In this document: in pieces, positions 10,533 to 20,778 of the stretch
Position numbering within the stretch: position 1 is the stretch's first letter
How the letters are laid out: every line of letters starts with the position of its first letter
Source: an uncultured Bacteroidales bacterium
GTDB taxonomy: Bacteria > Bacteroidota > Bacteroidia > Bacteroidales > P3
NCBI GenBank assembly: GCA_900318175.1
Contig: ONJQ01000001.1
Location: 124,001 to 188,000, forward strand
DNA: 64,000 nucleotides
Reading direction: 5' to 3'
Notes under the pieces: model-generated
Database searches by the model: none
Seen by the model: only the letters and a program-made list of their open reading frames with translations
What the model was told of the DNA's origin: nothing
Made by a program: the position numbers and the translations under genes

Positions 10533-11642
10533 ATGACCACCGCCGAAACCATCAAAGACCTCCAACAGCGCACAGAGGCCCTGCGACGCTACCTCAATAT
10601 AGACAACCTCACCGCACAAGTGGCCGAGGAAGAGAAGCAAACCGAAGCACCCGACTTCTGGAACGACCCCAAACAAGCCCAACGCATCATGAAGGCCATC
10701 CAGACCAAGAAGGCTTGGGTCACCGCCTTCCGCGAGGTGGAAAACAGTTGTGGCGACCTTGCCGTCATGGGCGAATTCTTTGACAGCGGCGACGCCACCG
10801 AGCAAGAAGTCCTAGACCAAATTGCCATCACGCAGCCCTTAGTCGAAGCTCTCGAACTCAAAAACATGCTCCAAGGCGAAAGCGACCATTTCGACGCAGT
10901 ACTCTCCATCAATGCTGGCGCAGGTGGCGTAGAAGCACAAGACTGGGCCGAGATGCTCATGCGCATGTACATCCGATATGCCGAAACCCACAACTACCGC
11001 GTGGCAATATCCAATAGTCTTGACGGCGAAGGTGCCGGCATAAAAAGCGCCACCCTGCAGATAGAAGGCGATTATGCCTACGGCTACCTCAAGAGCGAGA
11101 CTGGTGTCCACCGGCTGGTCCGCGTCAGTCCCTTCAACGCCCAGGGCAAACGCATGACCTCCTTCGCCTCCGTCAGTGTCACTCCCCTTGTCGACGACAC
11201 CATCGAGGTCGTTGTTGATATGTCCCGCCTCAGTTGGGACACCTTCCGCAGTGGCGGAGCCGGCGGTCAGAACGTCAACAAGGTAGAGAGCGGTGTCCGT
11301 CTTCGCTATCAGTACAAGGATCCCTACACCGGTGCCGAAGAAGAAATCCTTATTGAAAATACCGAAACCCGCGACCAACCCAAGAACAAAGAAAACGCCA
11401 TGAGACTGCTCCGCTCACAGCTATACGAGCGCGAGTTACAACACCGCATGGAGGAGCAAGCCAAAATCAAAGCCTCACAGAAAAAGATTGAATGGGGCAG
11501 CCAAATACGCAGCTATGTCATGGACGACCGTCGCGTCAAAGACCACCGCACCAACTACCAAACCTCCGATGTGGCCGCTGTCATGGACGGCAAGATTGAC
11601 AACTTCATCAAAGCCTACCTCATGCAGTTCGGTGCCGAATAA
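10533..11642 (+). CDS. prfB: Peptide chain release factor 2
   Basis: Releases nascent peptides at UGA and UAA codons. 369 residues. The RF2 stop-codon tripeptide is S199-P200-F201 (VRVSPFNAQG), and the peptidyl-transferase-centre motif is GGQ at 244-246 (SGGAGGQNVNK). The frame is open from the ATG, with no early in-frame UGA after the ALRRYL region. The classical autoregulatory +1 frameshift is therefore absent. It is followed by two strong hairpins. Confidence 0.97.
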   Translation: MTTAETIKDLQQRTEALRRYLNIDNLTAQVAEEEKQTEAPDFWNDPKQAQRIMKAIQTKKAWVTAFREVENSCGDLAVMGEFFDSGDATEQEVLDQIAITQPLVEALELKNMLQGESDHFDAVLSINAGAGGVEAQDWAEMLMRMYIRYAETHNYRVAISNSLDGEGAGIKSATLQIEGDYAYGYLKSETGVHRLVRVSPFNAQGKRMTSFASVSVTPLVDDTIEVVVDMSRLSWDTFRSGGAGGQNVNKVESGVRLRYQYKDPYTGAEEEILIENTETRDQPKNKENAMRLLRSQLYERELQHRMEEQAKIKASQKKIEWGSQIRSYVMDDRRVKDHRTNYQTSDVAAVMDGKIDNFIKAYLMQFGAE

Positions 11643-11724
11643 ACATCGCTCCCATCCAGCTCGTTTCTTTAATCTTCCTGCTTATGTCTCATTCAATCAA
11701 ATGAGACATTGCGAAAATGGAATA

Positions 11725-11764
11725 TCTCTCTGAGGAGTGACGTTCCTCTACTCCTTAGAGAGGA
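11725..11764 (+). terminator. Stem-loop downstream of prfB
   Basis: TCTCT and AGGAGT (11726-11740 region) pair with ACTCCT and AGAGA (to 11764) around a GACGTTCCTCT loop. There is no T-run of its own. It lies just upstream of the stronger terminator and may help RNA stability. Confidence 0.5.
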
Positions 11765-11768
11765 TACT

Positions 11769-11796
11769 AAAGGCCTGTCGCATGACAGGCCTTTTT
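11769..11796 (+). terminator. Bidirectional intrinsic terminator between prfB and the TIR gene
   Basis: AAAGGCCTGTC and GACAGGCCTTT pair around GCAT and are followed by T5 on the plus strand, with A3 before the stem for the opposite strand. It separates the convergent prfB and TIR transcription units. Confidence 0.85.
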
Positions 11797-11797
11797 A

Positions 11798-12835
11798 TTA
11801 TTTCAGATGGTTCTTGCAGTCGGCTATATAGGTGTCTATATCGCCACCGGTAAACCCTTCCTTCTTCAGCTTCTCAAAAAGGCTCAGAGCCTCCGGGTAC
11901 CTACCTGCCTTATGGAAATAAACAGCCTTGTTGTAATCCTTGTTTACCTTAGATTTTTCTGTAGTTTTGGTGACTGGAGTAGTCTTTTCGGGCTCATCGA
12001 TTTTAGTCTCTTGGGGTTGTTTGGCGGGTTCAGTTACTGTCGGAGGAATGGAAATATCTCCCTTCGGGGCGACTTCATGAGTTTCAACTTTTGCAGTTGT
12101 CCCAACATCATTACGAGGCTTTTCCTCGGTCTTGGTTTCTGTTTTCTGTTTGGGGGTGGTCTTATCCTTCTCCACTTTATTCTTCGTCTTTGTGGGAGGT
12201 TCTGGTTCCACAATTGATTCCACCTGAGGGACAGCAACTGTGTCTATTACCAAGGAATCAACCTGAACCGAATCGGTCACAGGCGACTCGCCACCTCCAC
12301 GTGGCACCAAGAATAATAGCAGCAGACCTATAGCCACAATCGCAGCCGCACTGCCCCAAAGGGCATTGTTGCGCCACCATTTGCGGTGCATCCGCTGCCT
12401 CACCACCAAGCCCACATTTGCTTTAAAAGTGTAATCGCGATGGACAGAAGAGATCTGGATGCCGCCATTGTTCGATAGCACTTTCAGCGAACTGGGCAAA
12501 TCATCTGGCCATACGCTCACCGCTCCATCAGGAGTGATGGGTATAATCTTGCGATTATACTTGAGTGCCTCCTCGATTTCTCTGCGCACCCAGTCGCCCT
12601 CGGCTTTGCAACGAACAAGCGTATCCTTGGTCAGCAACAACACGAAGAAATCGCATGTTCTGATGGCTGGCAGTATTTTCTGAGAGAAGAAATCATCCGT
12701 GCAATCGTTAAAGTCGAAAAAAACCTTGAATTTCCTCTCTTTGAATGCATAGTAGAAAGAACGTGCCAAATCGACATTTGAAGTGCCGTCGCTTTCGTGG
12801 CGCCTGTAGCTAAGAAAGATATCATATCCTGCCAT
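11798..12835 (-). CDS. TIR-domain protein with one transmembrane helix and C-terminal TPR-like helices
   Basis: 345 residues. Residues 1-~140 are a TIR domain: YDIFLSYRR at the start, VFFDFNDC, and DWVRREIEEAL, where E86 is in the position of the NADase catalytic glutamate. One TM helix (~155-177, WGSAAAIVAIGLLLLFLVP) puts the TIR in the cytosol. A Thr/Glu/Lys/Pro-rich linker (~200-290) precedes a TPR-like end (YNKAVYFHKAGRYPEALSLF) outside the membrane. Bacterial TIRs cleave NAD or make cyclic ADP-ribose signals in anti-phage systems; activity here is inferred from the motif. It lies 71 nt downstream of the exported 619-aa gene on the same strand. Topology suggests an outside-to-inside sensor. 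Confidence 0.85.
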   Translation of the reverse strand: MAGYDIFLSYRRHESDGTSNVDLARSFYYAFKERKFKVFFDFNDCTDDFFSQKILPAIRTCDFFVLLLTKDTLVRCKAEGDWVRREIEEALKYNRKIIPITPDGAVSVWPDDLPSSLKVLSNNGGIQISSVHRDYTFKANVGLVVRQRMHRKWWRNNALWGSAAAIVAIGLLLLFLVPRGGGESPVTDSVQVDSLVIDTVAVPQVESIVEPEPPTKTKNKVEKDKTTPKQKTETKTEEKPRNDVGTTAKVETHEVAPKGDISIPPTVTEPAKQPQETKIDEPEKTTPVTKTTEKSKVNKDYNKAVYFHKAGRYPEALSLFEKLKKEGFTGGDIDTYIADCKNHLK

Positions 12836-12906
12836 ACTCTTCTTCGTGGGTTTAGGGTTATAACTATTCTGCCAAGGGATAGTGTTGTTAGGGGATGAAC
12901 TTGGGA

Positions 12907-14766
12907 TTACCGAATTATCACATCTTGCGCATCAATCATCAACGGTCCCTCTGCAAGACGCCGCCGGATGGCTTTGGAGCGTTTGGCATTCTTTACACTG
13001 TTGCTGATGCCCTCGACCAACTCGTTGATATAGATAATCGAGGCTATTCCGAATCCAACGCTACTCAGGTAATAACCAACGTTTTTGAGATAGAAAGGAT
13101 TCATGGCTGCGTCGGTCAACTCCTGAACGGGATGATCAATTCGCGTCTCCCACAGCAGACCAAAAACGCCCAGGCCTCCAAAAAGGAAGAAGGGGATAGC
13201 ACGCGAGGCCACATCGGAACGCGCCCCTTGTTGGTAGGTGCCCAGACCCGGGATAATCAGCGAGGGAGCCCAAGAAAGGCCTCTGGCCGTTTGGAAATCC
13301 ATCAGGTAGATGTCGCGGTACTGCTCAACATAGCCCTGCCGTTCAAGGTCTTTATTCACCCAACCAAAGGTGTAGACACGCTTGGTTGGCAGTCGGGGAA
13401 CCCTGTACTGTTTAAAGGTACCATCAGCCTCCAACTCGGTTTTAGAAGTGCGCACCTCATACATGAATTGATGCTCAATCGAGTCAATCATACTTTGCAT
13501 CAAACTGTCCTTGACCAGTCGGGCATCGAATTCCGAGGTGGTATAATCCCAACGGACAAGCGCAGATATGGTGTCAGCCGTACGCACATAAACATTATGC
13601 TCACGCACAGGACTAATCAAGGGGGAGTTAGCAATACTGTCCACTTCGGCTCTCAGGCTATTGATACGAGCCTCACTGGGCTTGGCGCCTCTCGCTCTCG
13701 TGTCGACCATGACAACCGAAACATCTGCCGACGTTTCATTTTCGTAATCAGTCCTCACATTGAAATCCAGACGCAACTCCTGCTTCTTATTGCCAATGTG
13801 ATTTCTGATTTCCAGATTTACCACATCCTGCAATTGCTTGCAGAGAATCTCAAACGATTGGGGACATTTGGAACGGAATGGCAACACGACATTGTTTTTG
13901 CGAGCCTCCAGAAGCTCTTTCACACGGAGCACCTTCTCGTTTTGCGGCTCCAAGGAGAGGATTGTGTCGCACAAAGGCAATGCCTTCACCCACGATTCCC
14001 CCTCGCTCTGCAGTAGCGCCATGTCCAAAAGAGCCGAATAGTGGATGGTGCGGCTCTTTTCTACAAGCTGATAGGTAATTCTTATTGAATCGTTCATGGG
14101 AGGGTAATAGTCCATGACCGAGTCCAGTGTTGAGAATGCCTCGGCAAACTTGCCAGCATTGCGCAACACATCGGCGCGTGCCATAGCCTTCTTCACCCTA
14201 TCCACAGCGGCTTTCTTTTGGGGAGTGATGTACTTTGTTATCTCGTCGACATTCTTCAACTGAACCCACAACGAGGTGTCTTGGTCTTGAAGCACCTTGC
14301 ACTCATAACGCTCTATGCGCCCTTTCACCGGCTTTGTCCCGACAAAAACGGACTTCACACTGTTAAGGGTATAGGCATGGTTCAACAAATCGCTTATAAA
14401 ATCACACTCTCCCTTGTGTTTCATCGAGAACTGCACATAATTGCTCAGGCCGTCCAACGATTCCATCAAAAGCACCTCGATATTGCCCGATTTAGAGAAA
14501 TGGTAGAAACCTGTGCGCATATAGCGCAGTGGAAAGTTGTCAACAGTATCGGTAATGGTATCCGTAATACTGCCCATTTGGTAGTCTTTCTCAGCCATAA
14601 TGTCGAAGACATCAGATATTGGAAGATGCAGCATAGTCTCCAGTGTCTCAACAGAGATGCATGGGCTGTTCTTCTTTGATTCCTGAGCGTGGGTTCGGTT
14701 GCCTGGAAGTAGTGTCATGACGAGCAGCAGGCCAGCCAATCCAAAAAGAGTATTACTATTTCGCAT
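12907..14766 (-). CDS. Exported protein of unknown function with C-terminal membrane helices
   Basis: 619 residues. A signal peptide (MRNSNTLFGLAGLLLVMTLL, then THAQ) is followed by a long soluble region. It has helical repeats around 210-300 (MARADVLRNAGKFAEAF, LPLCDTILSLEPQNEKVL) that look TPR-like, then a mixed domain. Two hydrophobic stretches near the C-terminus (AIPFFLFGGLGVFGLLW; YYLSSVGFGIASIIYI) suggest membrane association. I do not recognise the family. Being co-oriented and adjacent to the TIR-TM gene, it may be its envelope partner or sensor. A promoter with TATATTTG at 14989-14996 precedes it. Confidence 0.7.
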   Translation of the reverse strand: MRNSNTLFGLAGLLLVMTLLPGNRTHAQESKKNSPCISVETLETMLHLPISDVFDIMAEKDYQMGSITDTITDTVDNFPLRYMRTGFYHFSKSGNIEVLLMESLDGLSNYVQFSMKHKGECDFISDLLNHAYTLNSVKSVFVGTKPVKGRIERYECKVLQDQDTSLWVQLKNVDEITKYITPQKKAAVDRVKKAMARADVLRNAGKFAEAFSTLDSVMDYYPPMNDSIRITYQLVEKSRTIHYSALLDMALLQSEGESWVKALPLCDTILSLEPQNEKVLRVKELLEARKNNVVLPFRSKCPQSFEILCKQLQDVVNLEIRNHIGNKKQELRLDFNVRTDYENETSADVSVVMVDTRARGAKPSEARINSLRAEVDSIANSPLISPVREHNVYVRTADTISALVRWDYTTSEFDARLVKDSLMQSMIDSIEHQFMYEVRTSKTELEADGTFKQYRVPRLPTKRVYTFGWVNKDLERQGYVEQYRDIYLMDFQTARGLSWAPSLIIPGLGTYQQGARSDVASRAIPFFLFGGLGVFGLLWETRIDHPVQELTDAAMNPFYLKNVGYYLSSVGFGIASIIYINELVEGISNSVKNAKRSKAIRRRLAEGPLMIDAQDVIIR

Positions 14767-14988
14767 AAAAAGGCACTATTTAATTACACTTTCATTTCAA
14801 TAATCCATTGTTTATACTATTGTGTTCAAGTCCTGTTTCGGATGTCTGAAAAGACTTTTCGACCATTAATAACAAGCATTCAAGGGGAAATGAAACCATC
14901 TTTCATCATATTGCCACACACAAACGATAGCCCATTTTCCTATCCTCCACACCATTAAACGCTACCTGTCCATAATAGTATAAGTATG

Positions 14989-15017
14989 CAAATATACGTT
15001 TTTTTAAGAAATAACAA
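14989..15017 (-). promoter_or_regulatory. Leftward promoter for the 619-aa and TIR genes
   Basis: Read on the minus strand: TTG (15017-15015), 18 nt, then TATATTTG (14996-14989), a good Bacteroidota promoter. It leaves a leader of about 215 nt before the ATG at 14766. Apart from it, 14767-15056 is AT-rich with no gene seen. Confidence 0.65.
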
Positions 15018-15056
15018 CAATTATTTATTGAAAAATTCTTCTTTTTTACATTCTCG

Positions 15057-15347
15057 CTATCTCACGATATTGTACCCAAGCGACAGTATGTACTTCAAAG
15101 TCTCCAAAGCTGTTTTCCTGTCGTATTCCTTTTCTCCCTCTTCCAACTCATCATACGGTACCAGGCAGGGTGTCTCTTTCAGTTCGTCATTCCTTTTTAG
15201 GCCGTATTTCCACCCCTCGGCAATCCGCCATTTCGACCACACCTCATGCACATGCCGCGCCAAGGGTTCTGTCAGTTGCACGAGCTCCTCCGGCAGCTGT
15301 ATGTCCGTTGTGTCTACAGGGTTTGGTTTGTATGTCTTGTCTGTCAT
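15057..15347 (-). CDS. Stand-alone RyR-domain protein
   Basis: 96 residues consisting almost entirely of one RyR (ryanodine-receptor repeat) domain: LARHVHEVWSKWRIAEGWKYG, then CLVPYDELEEGEKEYDRKT and ETLKYILSLGYNIVR. The W-x-x-x-R-I-x-E-G-W and L-V-P-Y-x-x-L-x-x-x-E-K-E-Y-D signatures are those of the eukaryotic channel repeats. Bacterial RyR domains have been proposed as nucleotide-ligand sensors in conflict systems (family knowledge). It starts 12 nt after the channel gene, whose C-terminus carries a second RyR domain, so the two are almost certainly co-transcribed and may bind the same ligand. Confidence 0.9.
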   Translation of the reverse strand: MTDKTYKPNPVDTTDIQLPEELVQLTEPLARHVHEVWSKWRIAEGWKYGLKRNDELKETPCLVPYDELEEGEKEYDRKTALETLKYILSLGYNIVR

Positions 15348-15359
15348 AAGCTTGCTTGT

Positions 15360-17375
15360 TTAATTACTTATCACATCGGACAGGTTCCGCACTATGACTT
15401 TGTCGTATTCCTGCGACGATTCCAGCAACTCGCCATACGGTGCTATATCTTTATGTTCGAAGTGGTTTTTCTTCAAATCATTGACTCTCTTTTTTACCGT
15501 TTCGTCACCCTTTTCCAGTCCCTGTTTGATTCTGGCTCTCTCCTCCTGGGGCAACGGACGGAAGCCTACCAGCAGCTTCTCTATATTCCAGCGGGCATGT
15601 TCCATCTTTGCCAGTCGCTCCAAGGTGTCTACGTCAAAGGTAATCTTTTTCTTCCCATCCGTGCTCACCCCCATGCTACGGAACTTGGTGTAGATAGAAT
15701 TGGCGCCATAAAGGTTGGACATCTTGTTGGCAAACGACAGTTTCCGCCACAACTCGTCAAGCTCGTCATTCTCCGCGGGCATCATCACATAATTATTGGT
15801 TTTGCAATAAAGATAGTTGATTCTTTTTGCCGAGGTTATGCGCCCTTCCAAACGCATGTCGTAGCTGTCGGACATGGTGCCGAACGACAGGATATTGGCA
15901 TACCTGCGGACATCCTTCGCTGCCTCTATCAGGGCATTGCTCACCGGCTGATACACCCATATCAAGGGGTCGTTTACCTCCAGTTCTTCACGGCTGGCCA
16001 CGGGCCGATAGAATCCTTCAGGAAGATACAGCGCATTGGCGATGTTCTTCTCCGGCTCGTCGTCACACAAGGCAAGTGTCAGTATCTGGGCTTCATCCTT
16101 CCGCCATTTCTCAAGGCGTTCCCTAATCCAGTCGTCAACCAATTCCCCTTCCATAAACTCCCACTCCACATCCATAAAATCGCCATACTCCTTCATGTTG
16201 CCCTCTTTATCTGTCAGTTCACCATTTTTCAAGAGACACCAGTGCGACACCTTGAATAGGCCGGGATAACGTCCGCGGAAGAACTTCATCTCCCTCTCCG
16301 CATTCTTGTCAATAAACGTTATCTTGGTTCTTATCGGGTGGGCTGACCCCTCTTCGAAGTTGGGATAGTGGCACAGGTGCGCCGCGGTGCTTGCCATGGC
16401 ATAGCCCATCTGCGTCATTCCCGCAACCACCAGATGCACATACTTCTCACTATCCACGGTGATAGCTCCGCGGTCCAGCGTATAGTCTTTCCATCTTTTG
16501 TCGTCCCCAATCAATATCTGTTGGGCGATGGACTCCAAACGGTTCACTATTGTGGTCTCCATCTTGGAGGTATCCTGCTCTTCGGGCAACGCATGGAAGA
16601 GATAGGTGGACGCATTGCGCTCAAAGGTCAGATAGCATTGCGCCCTGCTGGTTGCCTCGCGGCTGCGCAAATCTTTCAGCAATTTCCAGCAGTCCACGTT
16701 GATGGAGTCATGCTCCTTTTCGTCATCCTCGCCGGTGATGTATATCAGCGAAGCCTTCTCCGCCTGGCTGAATCGCAATGACTTCTCCATGTTCCGCTCG
16801 CCGTGATAGATGGTGAGGGACACCTTTCGCTCCTCGTCCGTCAGCAGTGGCACAATCTGCACCCACAACTCCTCAGCGTCCTGATTGGTCACAATCACAA
16901 CATCCTTCTTTTTCAGTGAGGCATCGGCTGCGATGGACTTCAATATGCCCACCACTATCTTGCTCCCTCCCATCACCAGTATGTGGTCGGAGAAATAGTA
17001 GTGCAGAAAGCCTTTCCTGTGGCTTGCCGCACGGTTGCTCAACAGGTTGCTGAACGCCGATATAAGGAAAGCCGTGAAGAACATCGTTCCCACAAAGGCT
17101 ATGACCAACTGATACCAATGGGGCATGGCAGACTGCAAAGGGTAATTGCTTTGCCCCAACATCAGGTGCAGCACCTCGTCCATCCGTTCGGATGCCACAG
17201 CACTTGTCCCTTCATCTGCAGCCGTGGCTCCCCAGACCAGCCCTATCAGCCAAAAAGCCAACGTCCACGACACACAGAAACCCACCACCCAAAGGATGGG
17301 CTTCAACATCTTATTGGTACTGAACGACCGGTCAAACCGCAGCAATATCCTTTTCCAATATCTTTTCATTGTCAA
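15360..17375 (-). CDS. Two-TM, Rossmann (RCK-like) channel-type protein with C-terminal RyR domain
   Basis: 671 residues. Two membrane helices (~25-48, LKPILWVVGFCVSWTLAFW; ~88-110, YQLVIAFVGTMFFTAFLIS) flank a segment of the size of a pore region. A TrkA-N/RCK-like Rossmann fold follows (HILVMGGSKIVVGILKSIAA), then a second regulatory half (HLVVAGMTQMGYAMASTAA). This layout resembles CASTOR/POLLUX-type cation channels. The last ~90 residues are an RyR domain: MEHARWNIEKLLVGFRPLP and IAPYGELLESSQEYDKVIV. The clearest reading is a ligand-gated inner-membrane ion channel. No K+-selectivity TVGYG motif is evident, so ion type is unknown. Directly upstream of the stand-alone RyR gene. Confidence 0.85.
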   Translation of the reverse strand: MTMKRYWKRILLRFDRSFSTNKMLKPILWVVGFCVSWTLAFWLIGLVWGATAADEGTSAVASERMDEVLHLMLGQSNYPLQSAMPHWYQLVIAFVGTMFFTAFLISAFSNLLSNRAASHRKGFLHYYFSDHILVMGGSKIVVGILKSIAADASLKKKDVVIVTNQDAEELWVQIVPLLTDEERKVSLTIYHGERNMEKSLRFSQAEKASLIYITGEDDEKEHDSINVDCWKLLKDLRSREATSRAQCYLTFERNASTYLFHALPEEQDTSKMETTIVNRLESIAQQILIGDDKRWKDYTLDRGAITVDSEKYVHLVVAGMTQMGYAMASTAAHLCHYPNFEEGSAHPIRTKITFIDKNAEREMKFFRGRYPGLFKVSHWCLLKNGELTDKEGNMKEYGDFMDVEWEFMEGELVDDWIRERLEKWRKDEAQILTLALCDDEPEKNIANALYLPEGFYRPVASREELEVNDPLIWVYQPVSNALIEAAKDVRRYANILSFGTMSDSYDMRLEGRITSAKRINYLYCKTNNYVMMPAENDELDELWRKLSFANKMSNLYGANSIYTKFRSMGVSTDGKKKITFDVDTLERLAKMEHARWNIEKLLVGFRPLPQEERARIKQGLEKGDETVKKRVNDLKKNHFEHKDIAPYGELLESSQEYDKVIVRNLSDVISN

Positions 17376-17530
17376 TTATGTTTTATTTATCTTCAAATCC
17401 TTTTCCATTCAATTTCACACCCACGCATATCCCCTTGTATATGTCATGTCTACTTACCTATGTGCCAATTCATAAATCGATTTGCGCATTCACACATTTA
17501 CACATTCAAACCAGCATCGTTTGTGCAAAG

Positions 17531-19030
17531 CTAAGGACACAAAACCAGACGGAAGCCAAAGTCGCAGGAGCGGCTGTTCGGCTTGTAGCTGAAACGGAAA
17601 GACACGCGGCAGCCCCACTCTTTGTAGCCAAAGCTACCGCCACGCAGCACACGGCTAGAGCCCTCATCCGGTCCCTGAGGATTGTACTGCGCACCGATAC
17701 TATAGAACCCAAACCAGTCACTGCACCATTCCAACACATTCCCGCTCATGTCGTACAGGCCTAATTCATTTGCCTTCTTTCCTTTCACTGGATGAGTTTC
17801 GCCTCCGCTGTTCCCCATGTTCCATGCCACTTCATCTATTTCGTCGCTCCCGCTATACTTGTGTCTCTTGCTCTTGTTTCCTCCCCGCGAGGCAAATTCC
17901 CATTCCGCCTCCGTCGGTAGTCTGAACGTGCGTCCAGTCTTTTTATTCAATGCTGGGATAAACTTCTCGACAATATCATCCCATGATACAGTTTCCACTG
18001 GAAAATCGGCGTCGCCAGTAAACCTGGACGGATTATTGCCCATCACAGCCTTCCACAATGCCTGTGTCACCAGTGTCTCTCCTATATAGTAGTCGCTCAA
18101 CTCGACTTCATGCACTGGGCTTTCATCATCCAACGCTTCTCCGTCATAGTTCGGAGACTTTGGGTCACTATTTTGTGCGCCCATCATAAACGTGCCACCC
18201 TCCACATACACCATTTTGAACTCCACTCCGCCCACTTCAAACTCACCCCGTGACTCTCGCTCCTTCCTTTCACGTTCTTTTCTCTCTCGCTCCTTCCACT
18301 CTGCTATGGCCTTTACCACGTTTTCTTTCAATCTCACTTCTATGTAATCCGTAGAATTCAAATCCTCTTCTTTTATTTCAACCGTCTCTGTCGTTCGTAC
18401 TTTATCGAAACCATTTGCCACGAATTCAAATTTGTGTTTACCTCTCAGAAGGAGCAAGAGATTATCTTCATCTGCCCGCGCCAACATTTTCTCCTTCTTA
18501 AATAGCATGACATGGCAATCATAGTCAGTATCAATATGCATCTTAACGCATTGCGCTTCATTCTTATCTTTACTGCTTAAAAACAATCTCTTTTCAACCA
18601 AATACCTTATATCCGTTCCAAGTGATTTCCGTTTGACGCCTATATTGGTAATTTCAACCCCTTCAATCGCACTTAATTCTGCGGGTATATCTTTTGGTAG
18701 CGTAGGAACCTCTCCATCGGGTGAAATCAAGATGATTTTACAGGGGCTGATAAATGCCTCCATAATTTCACGCCTCACCCAGTCCTTATCGTTCTTGCAA
18801 TTGTCAAGTGAATTCTGCGTCAACATGACGATGAAGTTACGACATGAATGTATTGCAGGAATAATGGTATTAATAAAATTCCAATCGGTGCAACCCTCTT
18901 GGTCAATAAACACTTGTAAACCCTCTTTCTCAAATTCAGCCTTAATAGATCGTGCTGTCGGTATATTACGCCCTTTTTCAGCAGGGCTGTCATGGCGGTA
19001 GCTGATAAAAATATCGTATTCTTTATCCAT
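17531..19030 (-). CDS. TIR domain fused to an FGE-sulfatase / C-type-lectin-fold domain
   Basis: 499 residues. The TIR spans ~1-150 (YDIFISYRHDS, VFIDQEGCTDW, DWVRREIMEAF with candidate catalytic E88). A linker with a charged ER-rich helix (~240-255) precedes an FGE-like domain from ~258: MVYVEGGTFMMGAQ, YYIGETLVTQALWKAVMG, RLPTEAEWEFASRGG, MSGNVLEWCSDW, RVLRGGSFGYKEWGCRVSF and the ending FGFRLVLCP. FGE-fold proteins of this kind either make formylglycine or act as ligand-binding lectin folds; fused to TIR, a recognition role is more likely. The C-terminal pattern resembles variable regions of diversity-generating retroelements, though no reverse transcriptase is in the window. 155 nt upstream of the channel gene. 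Confidence 0.88.
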   Translation of the reverse strand: MDKEYDIFISYRHDSPAEKGRNIPTARSIKAEFEKEGLQVFIDQEGCTDWNFINTIIPAIHSCRNFIVMLTQNSLDNCKNDKDWVRREIMEAFISPCKIILISPDGEVPTLPKDIPAELSAIEGVEITNIGVKRKSLGTDIRYLVEKRLFLSSKDKNEAQCVKMHIDTDYDCHVMLFKKEKMLARADEDNLLLLLRGKHKFEFVANGFDKVRTTETVEIKEEDLNSTDYIEVRLKENVVKAIAEWKERERKERERKERESRGEFEVGGVEFKMVYVEGGTFMMGAQNSDPKSPNYDGEALDDESPVHEVELSDYYIGETLVTQALWKAVMGNNPSRFTGDADFPVETVSWDDIVEKFIPALNKKTGRTFRLPTEAEWEFASRGGNKSKRHKYSGSDEIDEVAWNMGNSGGETHPVKGKKANELGLYDMSGNVLEWCSDWFGFYSIGAQYNPQGPDEGSSRVLRGGSFGYKEWGCRVSFRFSYKPNSRSCDFGFRLVLCP

Positions 19031-19698
19031 ACTGCTGTGTATTCGTCAAACAATCTATTCGTTTACAAGCGGTTCAGCAATTAAAGCCGATACTCCACTT
19101 TTTTGCAAATATACAAAAAATTTTCATTTATTATAACGCATTGTTGCCGCAAAGTGAACTTCAGTTCGGGAAACCTCATCCCGCAACCGATAACAACGCC
19201 CACCTATTCACTCCCATCTGTCAACATTTATCTGACTCATTCTTGGATAAACCCGAAGCGGTCATTTGTCTTTTTCATGTGTGCATATTACAATCCGCAG
19301 GACTGGCAGAGATTGGCTGGTGTTGATCACTTCGGAGAGGTAAAACCATTCATAACACCGTACAAGCCGTAAGGCGCAGTGCGGTGATTGTCAGTAAGAA
19401 AGCGACTGCGTCCCGAAGGGACGCGACCATGAACGCTAAGAGTCCTCCCGTCCTTCCGACATAAATCCCTCAAACACATGTCTCTGTTCAATTCAACAAC
19501 GCTCGTCAAATTGCCGTTCAATACTCGTTCTATATTGATTCAATATTGAACTAATATTGAACGGGCATTCTCGGAACGTTTAACGAGCTAAGATGCAGCA
19601 TTTTAGATACAACACAATGGATACCACGCTATATTACAATGCCTTAACGCGCAAACAACTGGTGCGTTACGCCAAGACTTAGAGGGGAGAGGGGCGCA
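19031..19698 (-). promoter_or_regulatory. Long gene-poor stretch with a -7 element and palindromic ATATTGAA repeats
   Basis: 668 bp without a convincing gene. A minus-strand TATATTTG (19113-19106) with a poor -33 may drive the TIR-FGE gene. At 19517-19563 there are repeated TTCAATA/ATATTGAA words, including the perfect palindrome TTCAATATTGAA. A 21-codon frame at 19618-19681 (M-D-T-T-L-Y-Y-N-A-L to a TAG) could be a remnant of a lost gene. 19400-19430 has a short hairpin (GCGTCCCGAAGGGACGC). Confidence 0.4.
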
Positions 19699-20778
19699 TC
19701 AAAAGCGACCATAAAAGCCCACGCCCAGGTCGACCAGCCGCTGGGGCAGGTTGTCGGGATTGCCGGCGGAGTCGGCAGGGACGTTGACGGTGATGTGTGT
19801 GCGGCGGGAGGCGAAGATGCCCACGCCGCCGTTGATGTTGCTGTAGACAGGGAGCTCGTGTCCGTCGGCACTTACTTGGTGCTGTGTGCGCATGTACTGG
19901 TAAAGGTCTTCATTGCAGACAGTGAGGGTAATGTCGACGTTGTTGACGCAATAGAGGGTGTCGGTGTTGGAGGCAAGGTGCTGGCGGATGACGGAAAGGA
20001 ATTCCCGCTCGGTGAACGGCCTGACAACAAAATGGTCGCCACTGAAGGGGGCCAAGGCGGTGATGCCGGGAATGGTGATGCTGAGGGTGTCGCGGTTTTT
20101 CTGGTAATGGAAAGTGACAAAAGGTTGATAGAACCTGCCCCGCGGCAGCGGGTTCCACTCCAAGAAGCCTCGGCAGCCGACACTGAATCCGAACTCGTGG
20201 GCGCGGGTGTAGGTGGGGTTGGTGATGACCCTCTCGATAAGGCCGCGGGAGGTGGGGGTTTTGGGCAGTACGCCCACAAGGGAGGTGAAGGCGGTGGCGA
20301 GGGTGTCCATGGATGGGGAGGAGGCGTTGCCGGAGCGGCGGAGGATAACGAGTTGGAAGAGGCAGCCGGTATCGGCCAACAGGTGCTCGCCGGGCACGCA
20401 GTAGTAGAGCGGCCGTAGATGAACGCCAGCCGTGGAATCAAGGCCGAGTGGGGTCTCGGTGCAAGTGAGTTCCCAGCGGTCGGCCAGTGTGGCGTAGGCT
20501 GTGGGGTTGGCACCGATGGGAGAGGCTCCGTCCCAGGCAAGGAGATGGACTGCCACGTCAGAGGGGAGGTAGTAGTTGGAATCGGGCACAGTGGTGTAGG
20601 TATACATGTTCTCTTGCCCTTGGAAGCAACGCTGAAGGCGCACCCAGACGGTATCCTCGTCGGGGTCGATGACGCAATAGACAACAGGCACTTCGCGCCA
20701 GGGGGCGTTAGGGTCAAACTCGGCCTTGCAGGAGGTGAGGAGCAGCAGGACCGCAACGACAGGGAGAAGGCTCTTCAT
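19699..20778 (-). CDS. Lipoprotein, DUF4249-like, paralogue of the upstream gene
   Basis: 359 residues. A lipoprotein signal (MKSLLPVVAVLLLLTSCKAE) has the lipobox L-T-S-C, so it is probably anchored in the outer membrane. It shares its layout with the gene at 20858-21922: APWREVPVVYCVIDPDEDTV, SNYYLPSDVAVHLLAWDG, LYYCVPGEHLLADT, VDITLTVCNEDLYQYM, and the identical-type ending LPQRLVDLGVGFYGRF. Such proteins resemble DUF4249 lipoproteins often linked to TonB-dependent receptors. None is adjacent here. Function unknown. Confidence 0.75.
   Translation of the reverse strand: MKSLLPVVAVLLLLTSCKAEFDPNAPWREVPVVYCVIDPDEDTVWVRLQRCFQGQENMYTYTTVPDSNYYLPSDVAVHLLAWDGASPIGANPTAYATLADRWELTCTETPLGLDSTAGVHLRPLYYCVPGEHLLADTGCLFQLVILRRSGNASSPSMDTLATAFTSLVGVLPKTPTSRGLIERVITNPTYTRAHEFGFSVGCRGFLEWNPLPRGRFYQPFVTFHYQKNRDTLSITIPGITALAPFSGDHFVVRPFTEREFLSVIRQHLASNTDTLYCVNNVDITLTVCNEDLYQYMRTQHQVSADGHELPVYSNINGGVGIFASRRTHITVNVPADSAGNPDNLPQRLVDLGVGFYGRF

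Follow-up and report, generated by a model that had tools for sequence, protein, structure and literature searches.

A candidate modular, Thoeris-like gene cluster of Bacteroidales joining TIR proteins to a channel-like protein with a RyR domain

Thoeris is an anti-phage system in which a TIR protein, ThsB, makes a cADPR or His-ADPR signal and ThsA is the sensor-effector; ThsA-type effectors are SIR2-SLOG and Macro-TM proteins, and some known Thoeris types use membrane effectors. Phages carry RyR-domain proteins that cleave or sequester 2'cADPR and 3'cADPR: RyDEP, a dimeric anti-Thoeris protein, cleaves cADPR and its homologues sequester it, and the RyDEP residues touching the ligand are H75, W78, H100 and D117 (PMC13232231). 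The role of RyR domains of bacterial hosts is left open in the accessible portions of that 2026 preprint. DUF4062 (Swarozyc) proteins were recently reported to be TIR-like NADases depleting NAD to ADPR, for which the accessible portions of their source describe no channel partner (PMC13174449).

Exploring a 64,000-nt stretch of an uncultured Bacteroidales bacterium (GCA_900318175.1, contig ONJQ01000001.1, positions 124,001-188,000 of the forward strand; hereafter the window), we examined a cluster in which a first-pass annotation had described five genes on one strand. Open reading frames and Pfam matches agreed with that description: the minus strand carries all five, in the order TIR-FGE, CHAN, free RyR, P619 and TIR-TM (Table 1). 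Pfam matches over cut-off in the five proteins were two TIR_2, one FGE-sulfatase and one RyR. Both TIR domains reported earlier thus stand, each with the putative catalytic glutamate in the catalytic column, and so does the free RyR protein, which starts 12 bp behind CHAN and matches PF02026 with 118.4 bits against a cut-off of 27.4. The prfB-side site varies among relatives: the gap measures about 170 bp in L157, whose prfB is 93% identical, while the same gap holds apparent efflux genes in L156 and the cluster in L154. The gene labels prfB, tig and efflux are presumptive, in part read from motifs.

Table 1. Features of the cluster and its surroundings, in window positions
Feature	Position	Strand	Remarks
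TIR-FGE, 499 aa	17531..19030	-	TIR at the N-terminus (W-V-R-R-E); FGE-sulfatase (C-type-lectin-like) domain at the C-terminus
CHAN, 669 aa from ATG (671 from TTG 17375)	15360..17369	-	RyR at the C-terminus, after two TM helices and an RCK gating-ring fold
RyR domain of CHAN, divergent, residues 572-669	15360..15656	-	H591, W594, H639, D656
Free RyR protein, 96 aa	15057..15347	-	H34, W37, D76; T59 at the RyDEP H100 position
P619	12907..14766	-	export-like hydrophobic N-terminus; hydrophobic segment near 519
TIR-TM, 345 aa	11798..12835	-	W-V-R-R-E in the N-terminal TIR; a single hydrophobic segment at ~156-175; TPR-like C-terminus
Promoter-like TATATTTGCA 5' of TIR-FGE	19104..19113	-
Promoter-like TAGCTTTGCA 5' of CHAN	17524..17533	-	clear upstream element not seen
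Promoter-like TATATTTGCA 5' of P619	14987..14996	-
Gap filled by the cluster	11643..19698		flanked by a prfB-like gene (10533-11642) and by one for a lipoprotein (19699-20778)

The five genes had also been taken as one set, and this did not hold. Neither one operon of all five genes nor a fixed system found support, given the three promoter-like sites and the five-gene order, seen in only three genomes: the window, L052/L154 (apparently one genome) and L085, which has one extra small gene. Moreover, P619 and TIR-TM form a separate module and the partner domains of the TIRs vary, as described below. Diversification of the FGE end by a DGR was considered and rejected as well, since the own genome (~92% complete) held no template repeat for the variable 3' end; the best other match was 47 bp over the conserved FGE motif. 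In another genome (G035), a tandem pair of TIR-FGE genes lies ahead of the channel (L036:12030-15170), which suggests duplication and divergence of the sensor arm.

The cluster resembles Thoeris in that a TIR with the catalytic glutamate, and with predicted activity, lies beside a protein joining a signal-sensor domain to an effector; unlike Thoeris, the presumed sensor in the window is a RyR domain and the presumed effector an RCK channel. No SIR2, SLOG or Macro domain was found by Pfam in the five proteins, and neither NCBIfam nor PADLOC found a Thoeris effector. Among Thoeris TIR models, type III ThcB4 of NCBIfam scored 39.5 bits against a cut-off of 220, and the PADLOC ThsB matches reached 16.0-18.9 bits. 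Given the lack of SIR2, SLOG and Macro domains by Pfam and the missed curated Thoeris cut-off, we did not file the cluster as a named Thoeris type. The RyR domains share with RyDEP the fold of PF02026 and, among the ligand residues, H, W and D (plus the second H in the channel domain); they differ in belonging to host genes, in being joined to a channel or encoded next to one, and in standing beside TIRs instead of opposing them, and the free RyR of the window has T for H100. The fold and the ligand residues are shared with the R12 repeats of animal ryanodine receptors (PMC13232231, accessible portions), which carry them as repeats in tandem within a giant calcium channel, in contrast to the one divergent RyR on an RCK channel here. 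CHAN resembles CASTOR and GsuK channels in its RCK ring after two TM helices, and differs from CASTOR/POLLUX (DMI1) and GsuK in its C-terminal RyR and in the TxGYG filter, found in none of 39 family members. As with Swarozyc, DUF4062 proteins occur in or near some RyR or CHAN loci (L048, L070 and L124 by Pfam; L046, L090, L109, L113 and L118 by motif only); the window, by contrast, has none.

On balance we lean towards a modular, Thoeris-like immune signalling cluster in which a TIR product opens CHAN via its RyR domain. As the best explanation it rests on gene content, predicted folds, the conserved pocket, the TIR glutamate and the coupling of TIR and RyR genes, from which we infer the chemistry, the gating, the trigger and the outcome. 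Weighing against it are the 45 of 80 RyR loci and the tandem-RyR loci in which no TIR was found, the missing TxGYG filter, the T at H100 in the free RyR, the below-cut-off RyR of the window's CHAN and the deviating pockets of L062 and L107, all detailed below. The sensors would sit on the TIR proteins: TIR-FGE (presumably a cytosolic sensor and signal maker) and, at the envelope, TIR-TM together with P619; the trigger would most likely be phage. Once triggered, the TIRs would convert NAD into an ADP-ribose derivative, most likely 2'- or 3'-cyclic ADPR; the C-terminal RyR of CHAN would bind it, the RCK ring would open the two-TM pore, and the open pore would halt or kill the cell. The free RyR may serve as the second half of a ligand clamp, given that RyDEP is a dimer, or as a buffer that sets the threshold. 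That RyR domains could bind TIR products had been proposed from the window alone, and it accords with the phage proteins that bind or cleave 2' and 3'cADPR (PMC13232231, accessible portions).

Could the locus belong to an already described Thoeris type and hence be known? We regard this as rather unlikely. Yirmiya et al. 2025 is cited for type VI Thoeris signalling through 2'cADPR by PMC13232231, the accessible text of which names no bacterial RyR effector. Our literature searches found no bacterial TIR/RyR-channel pair; Yirmiya et al. 2025, which could contain it, and two Burroughs/Aravind papers lay outside their reach. In agreement with the earlier remark that no named system has this gene set, no model for a system of this kind that CHAN would match is found in PADLOC-DB 2023 or NCBIfam June 2026. 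CHAN of the window has no match over cut-off in Pfam, NCBIfam or PADLOC; of 18 CHAN relatives, two matched an NCBIfam K-channel model and none matched PADLOC.

CHAN had been described as a two-TM channel-like protein with a C-terminal RyR, and the predicted folds bear this out: an RCK gating ring follows two TM helices, the arrangement of an RCK-gated channel. Its C-terminus scored 14.9 bits against PF02026, under the 27.4 cut-off; profile-profile comparison and the predicted fold back a RyR domain, and in the relatives L193, L194 and L196 RyR is above the Pfam cut-off. Since the K+ selectivity filter TxGYG was found in none of the 39 CHAN proteins of the family, some of which lack the N-terminus, the pore is deduced from the fold only. 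Sequence searches of the PDB with CHAN or P619 gave nothing useful. The H, W, H and D aligned to the RyDEP ligand residues are invariant in 24 channel RyR domains, the window's included, that were hand-picked from a longer list with CHAN-B, Clostridial, partial and some divergent rows left out; among the rows left out, the first H is replaced by Q in L062, and L107 deviates at several pocket positions. Elsewhere, a 1210-aa CHAN protein with an apparent FGE domain at its end adjoins a TIR gene (L187:7552-11184), channel and sensor domains being recombined in it.

Examination of 95 rows of free or fused RyR domains (strong profile matches, overlapping loci included) showed that H, W and D are invariant and that, at the H100 position, 51 rows have H, 35 T, eight N and one V. 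All four residues of a RyDEP-type glycosidase (H75, W78, H100, D117) are found in the RyR of CHAN, and in the window's free RyR T takes the place of H100; because of this T the free RyR may bind rather than cleave its ligand. These residues bear on a different role, in which the free and channel RyR domains act as a brake that sequesters or hydrolyses the TIR product, so that the host is protected or the signal ended, with the TIRs acting through NAD depletion and the channel of secondary importance. Such a role would suit the cleavage of cADPR by RyDEP and its sequestration by RyDEP homologues (PMC13232231, accessible portions), as well as the catalytic-pair H and D, both kept in 95 of 95 rows. 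A RyR built into an RCK channel, and in Candidatus Methanoperedens fused to SLATT/DUF4231-type membrane segments (L118:9995-11374, about 2 kb from a TIR gene), is easier to reconcile with an effector sensor, and the T at H100 in the window's free RyR also speaks against a brake; we therefore consider this role improbable.

Free RyR genes 61-63% identical to that of the window occur on four phage contigs (L132-L135). They have H, W, H and D all present, their nearest bacterial RyR on a quick tree is from Clostridia (L098), and they are possibly anti-defence proteins like RyDEP. At two other loci (L122:10552-12291 and L123:8460-9936), an apparent sigma-factor gene and an anti-sigma-like protein with a RyR end, both labelled by eye, lie beside a free RyR, which suggests that this sensor also serves in transcription.

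The reading of RyR as the sensor of a TIR signal draws on the association of the two genes, which the first-pass annotation had proposed. It had named a lack of TIR and RyR co-occurrence in related genomes as evidence against the idea; this was checked and co-occurrence was found. The own genome (2.9 Mb, 91.8% complete) has two TIR_2 matches, and both flank its sole PF02026 match. Among the best 80 of 234 RyR relatives, whose loci we retrieved, a TIR lies in the same directon in 27 and anywhere in the retrieved DNA in 35. The retrieved DNA of the other 45 of these 80 has no TIR, with the reservation that contigs of metagenome-assembled genomes end early and that many of these loci stop at contig ends. 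In 34 of the 80 the CHAN profile matched either the RyR protein or another protein of its directon, and 12 further RyR loci have a neighbour with at least two hydrophobic segments and a RyR-like C-terminal profile (by reading; a looser count gives 56). TIRs in the loci were called by an iterated custom profile and genome-wide TIRs by PF13676. Measured in 40 of the 80 genomes, 21 of 115 TIRs fall within the 0.63% of sequence around RyR, and 12 of 40 loci have a TIR where 0.72 would be expected. In the full set of 80 loci, TIRs are on the RyR strand by 43:6, compared with 387:259 for other ORFs of at least 200 aa. P values here are only descriptive, since loci share ancestry and the locus sets overlap (L054, L073, L079, L109, L116 and L123 appear to be G103, G092, G099, G110, G035 and G014).

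TIRs near RyR are not one inherited gene. At 40% identity, 17 of 24 TIR clusters include a TIR from a RyR directon, and the partner domains of TIRs at RyR loci vary (FGE, WD40, WG, Sel1 and Fib_succ_major). On a poorly resolved RyR tree the TIR label changes 19 times, three of these changes being forced by well-supported branches. In a Ruminococcaceae MAG, RyR (1.3e-35) and TIR (3.4e-20) are found in one 521-aa ORF, open at the 5' end of the contig (L071:1-1566), and a second TIR gene follows this fusion. All 61 aligned TIR domains (the window and L032-L136) keep the glutamate of the catalytic column, from which it is likely, as judged by this residue, that the TIRs are enzymatic.

Other genes are found at RyR loci too. 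Card1-type endonuclease and AAA-M41 protease genes (L077:3267-4520, L096:5718-9905, L063:6327-9752 and L094:10512-14015) hint that RyR may also be accompanied by further effectors or sensors. Nor is RyR invariably accompanied by a TIR: most of the PF02026 matches in genus g71 stand in tandem at the end of ~890-aa proteins, in about 20 genomes, and none of the three tandem-RyR loci L190-L192 has a TIR; the protein at L190:4229-6898 has, besides RyR, weak AAA matches only.

As a control we compared RCK channels with and without RyR in a phylum-wide sample of 395 genomes, where the channel-profile search matched mostly RyR-less channels. Five bear RyR (L193, L194, L195, L196 and L200, the RyR of L195 being below the Pfam cut-off) and 19 are RyR-less (L197-L199 and L201-L212, 620-664 aa; L213-L216, 385-394 aa, three of these four with TxGYGD); channel matches in G154, G164, G428, G431 and G438 and RyR matches in G244 and most g71 genomes were left out. 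A same-strand TIR at most three genes away accompanies all five RyR-bearing channels, directly adjacent in four (the 105-aa TIR ORF of L200 looks broken), whereas none of the 19 RyR-less channels has one within four genes on each side. In L194 and L196 the RyR-channel gene and a TIR-WD40 gene make up a two-gene module. The chance of the 5/5 versus 0/19 contrast is 1/C(24,5), about 2e-5 with kinship ignored; by genus it stands at 4/4 versus 0/12, two genera being in both sets. Furthermore, G161 and G182 hold both kinds of channel, and the TIR is found only at the RyR-bearing copy.

TIR and RyR genes may adjoin in defence islands for other reasons, the TIRs being self-contained NAD depleters and CHAN-RyR a channel for ion balance tuned by ATP, ADP or NAD; this is consistent with the TIR, nSTAND, Card1-type and other conflict genes around these loci, with the variable prfB-side site and with the nucleotides that RCK rings commonly bind (structure entries of GsuK include ADP and NAD), but we give it little credence in view of the 43:6 strand bias, the RyR-TIR fusion and the TIRs beside RyR-bearing and not RyR-less channels, also within single genomes. 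Together, the same-directon counts, the strand bias, the fusion and the RyR-less control uphold the association of TIR with RyR and channel genes.

A census of the family agrees with a TIR signal acting through the RyR of CHAN. CHAN relatives occur in 31 of 149 family genomes, at 39 loci. Thirty of these are of the window's general kind, and in their retrieved DNA 15 have a TIR (that of L181 on the other strand), 14 another RyR and 21 either. The other nine are CHAN-B paralogues, a class set by eye from tails and neighbours, which have lost the equivalents of H100 and D117; none of them has another RyR and one has a TIR, on the opposite strand (Fisher test of CHAN-B against the rest: 0.04 for TIR, 0.01 for RyR and 0.003 for either). 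The second CHAN of the own genome belongs to CHAN-B and its RyR pocket is degraded; it lies about 24 kb past the window end (L041:8436-10457; G000:C45:212438-214426), where a trigger-factor-like gene and a gene for a small exported protein precede it, and may be a housekeeping offshoot. In L042, L044 and L045 the TM part has been lost as well.

The pairing of P619 with a membrane TIR, noted earlier in the window, recurs: P619 relatives are present in 11 of 149 family genomes (the own included), and a same-strand TIR gene follows in all 11, so that P619 and TIR-TM are a module of their own. CHAN is also present in each of the 11 (hypergeometric 6e-9, kinship ignored), and in L184 and L185 P619, TIR and CHAN stand in a row on one strand.

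A wider proposal, which we advance tentatively and would expect to fail somewhat sooner than to hold, is a bacterial pathway from cADPR to a RyR channel, in which infection would prompt TIRs to produce an isomer of cyclic ADPR, and this isomer would open an RCK channel via RyR. It would operate in Bacteroidales and relatives, with related TM-RyR partners in Clostridia and with freely swapped sensors, and phages would answer it with free RyR proteins.

TIR enzymes of the NAD-cutting type beside a channel-like protein with a RyR domain suggest an alarm that opens a channel by an NAD-derived signal. The locus family offers a testable host counterpart to phage RyR, a channel-like protein that has signal-binding residues and travels with TIRs. 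If the proposal is true, ion flow through RCK channels would join the outputs of TIR signalling, and the locus would provide a small bacterial model in which to ask if cADPR works through RyR domains and by what mechanism, a pairing of messenger and domain long discussed for animal ryanodine receptors.
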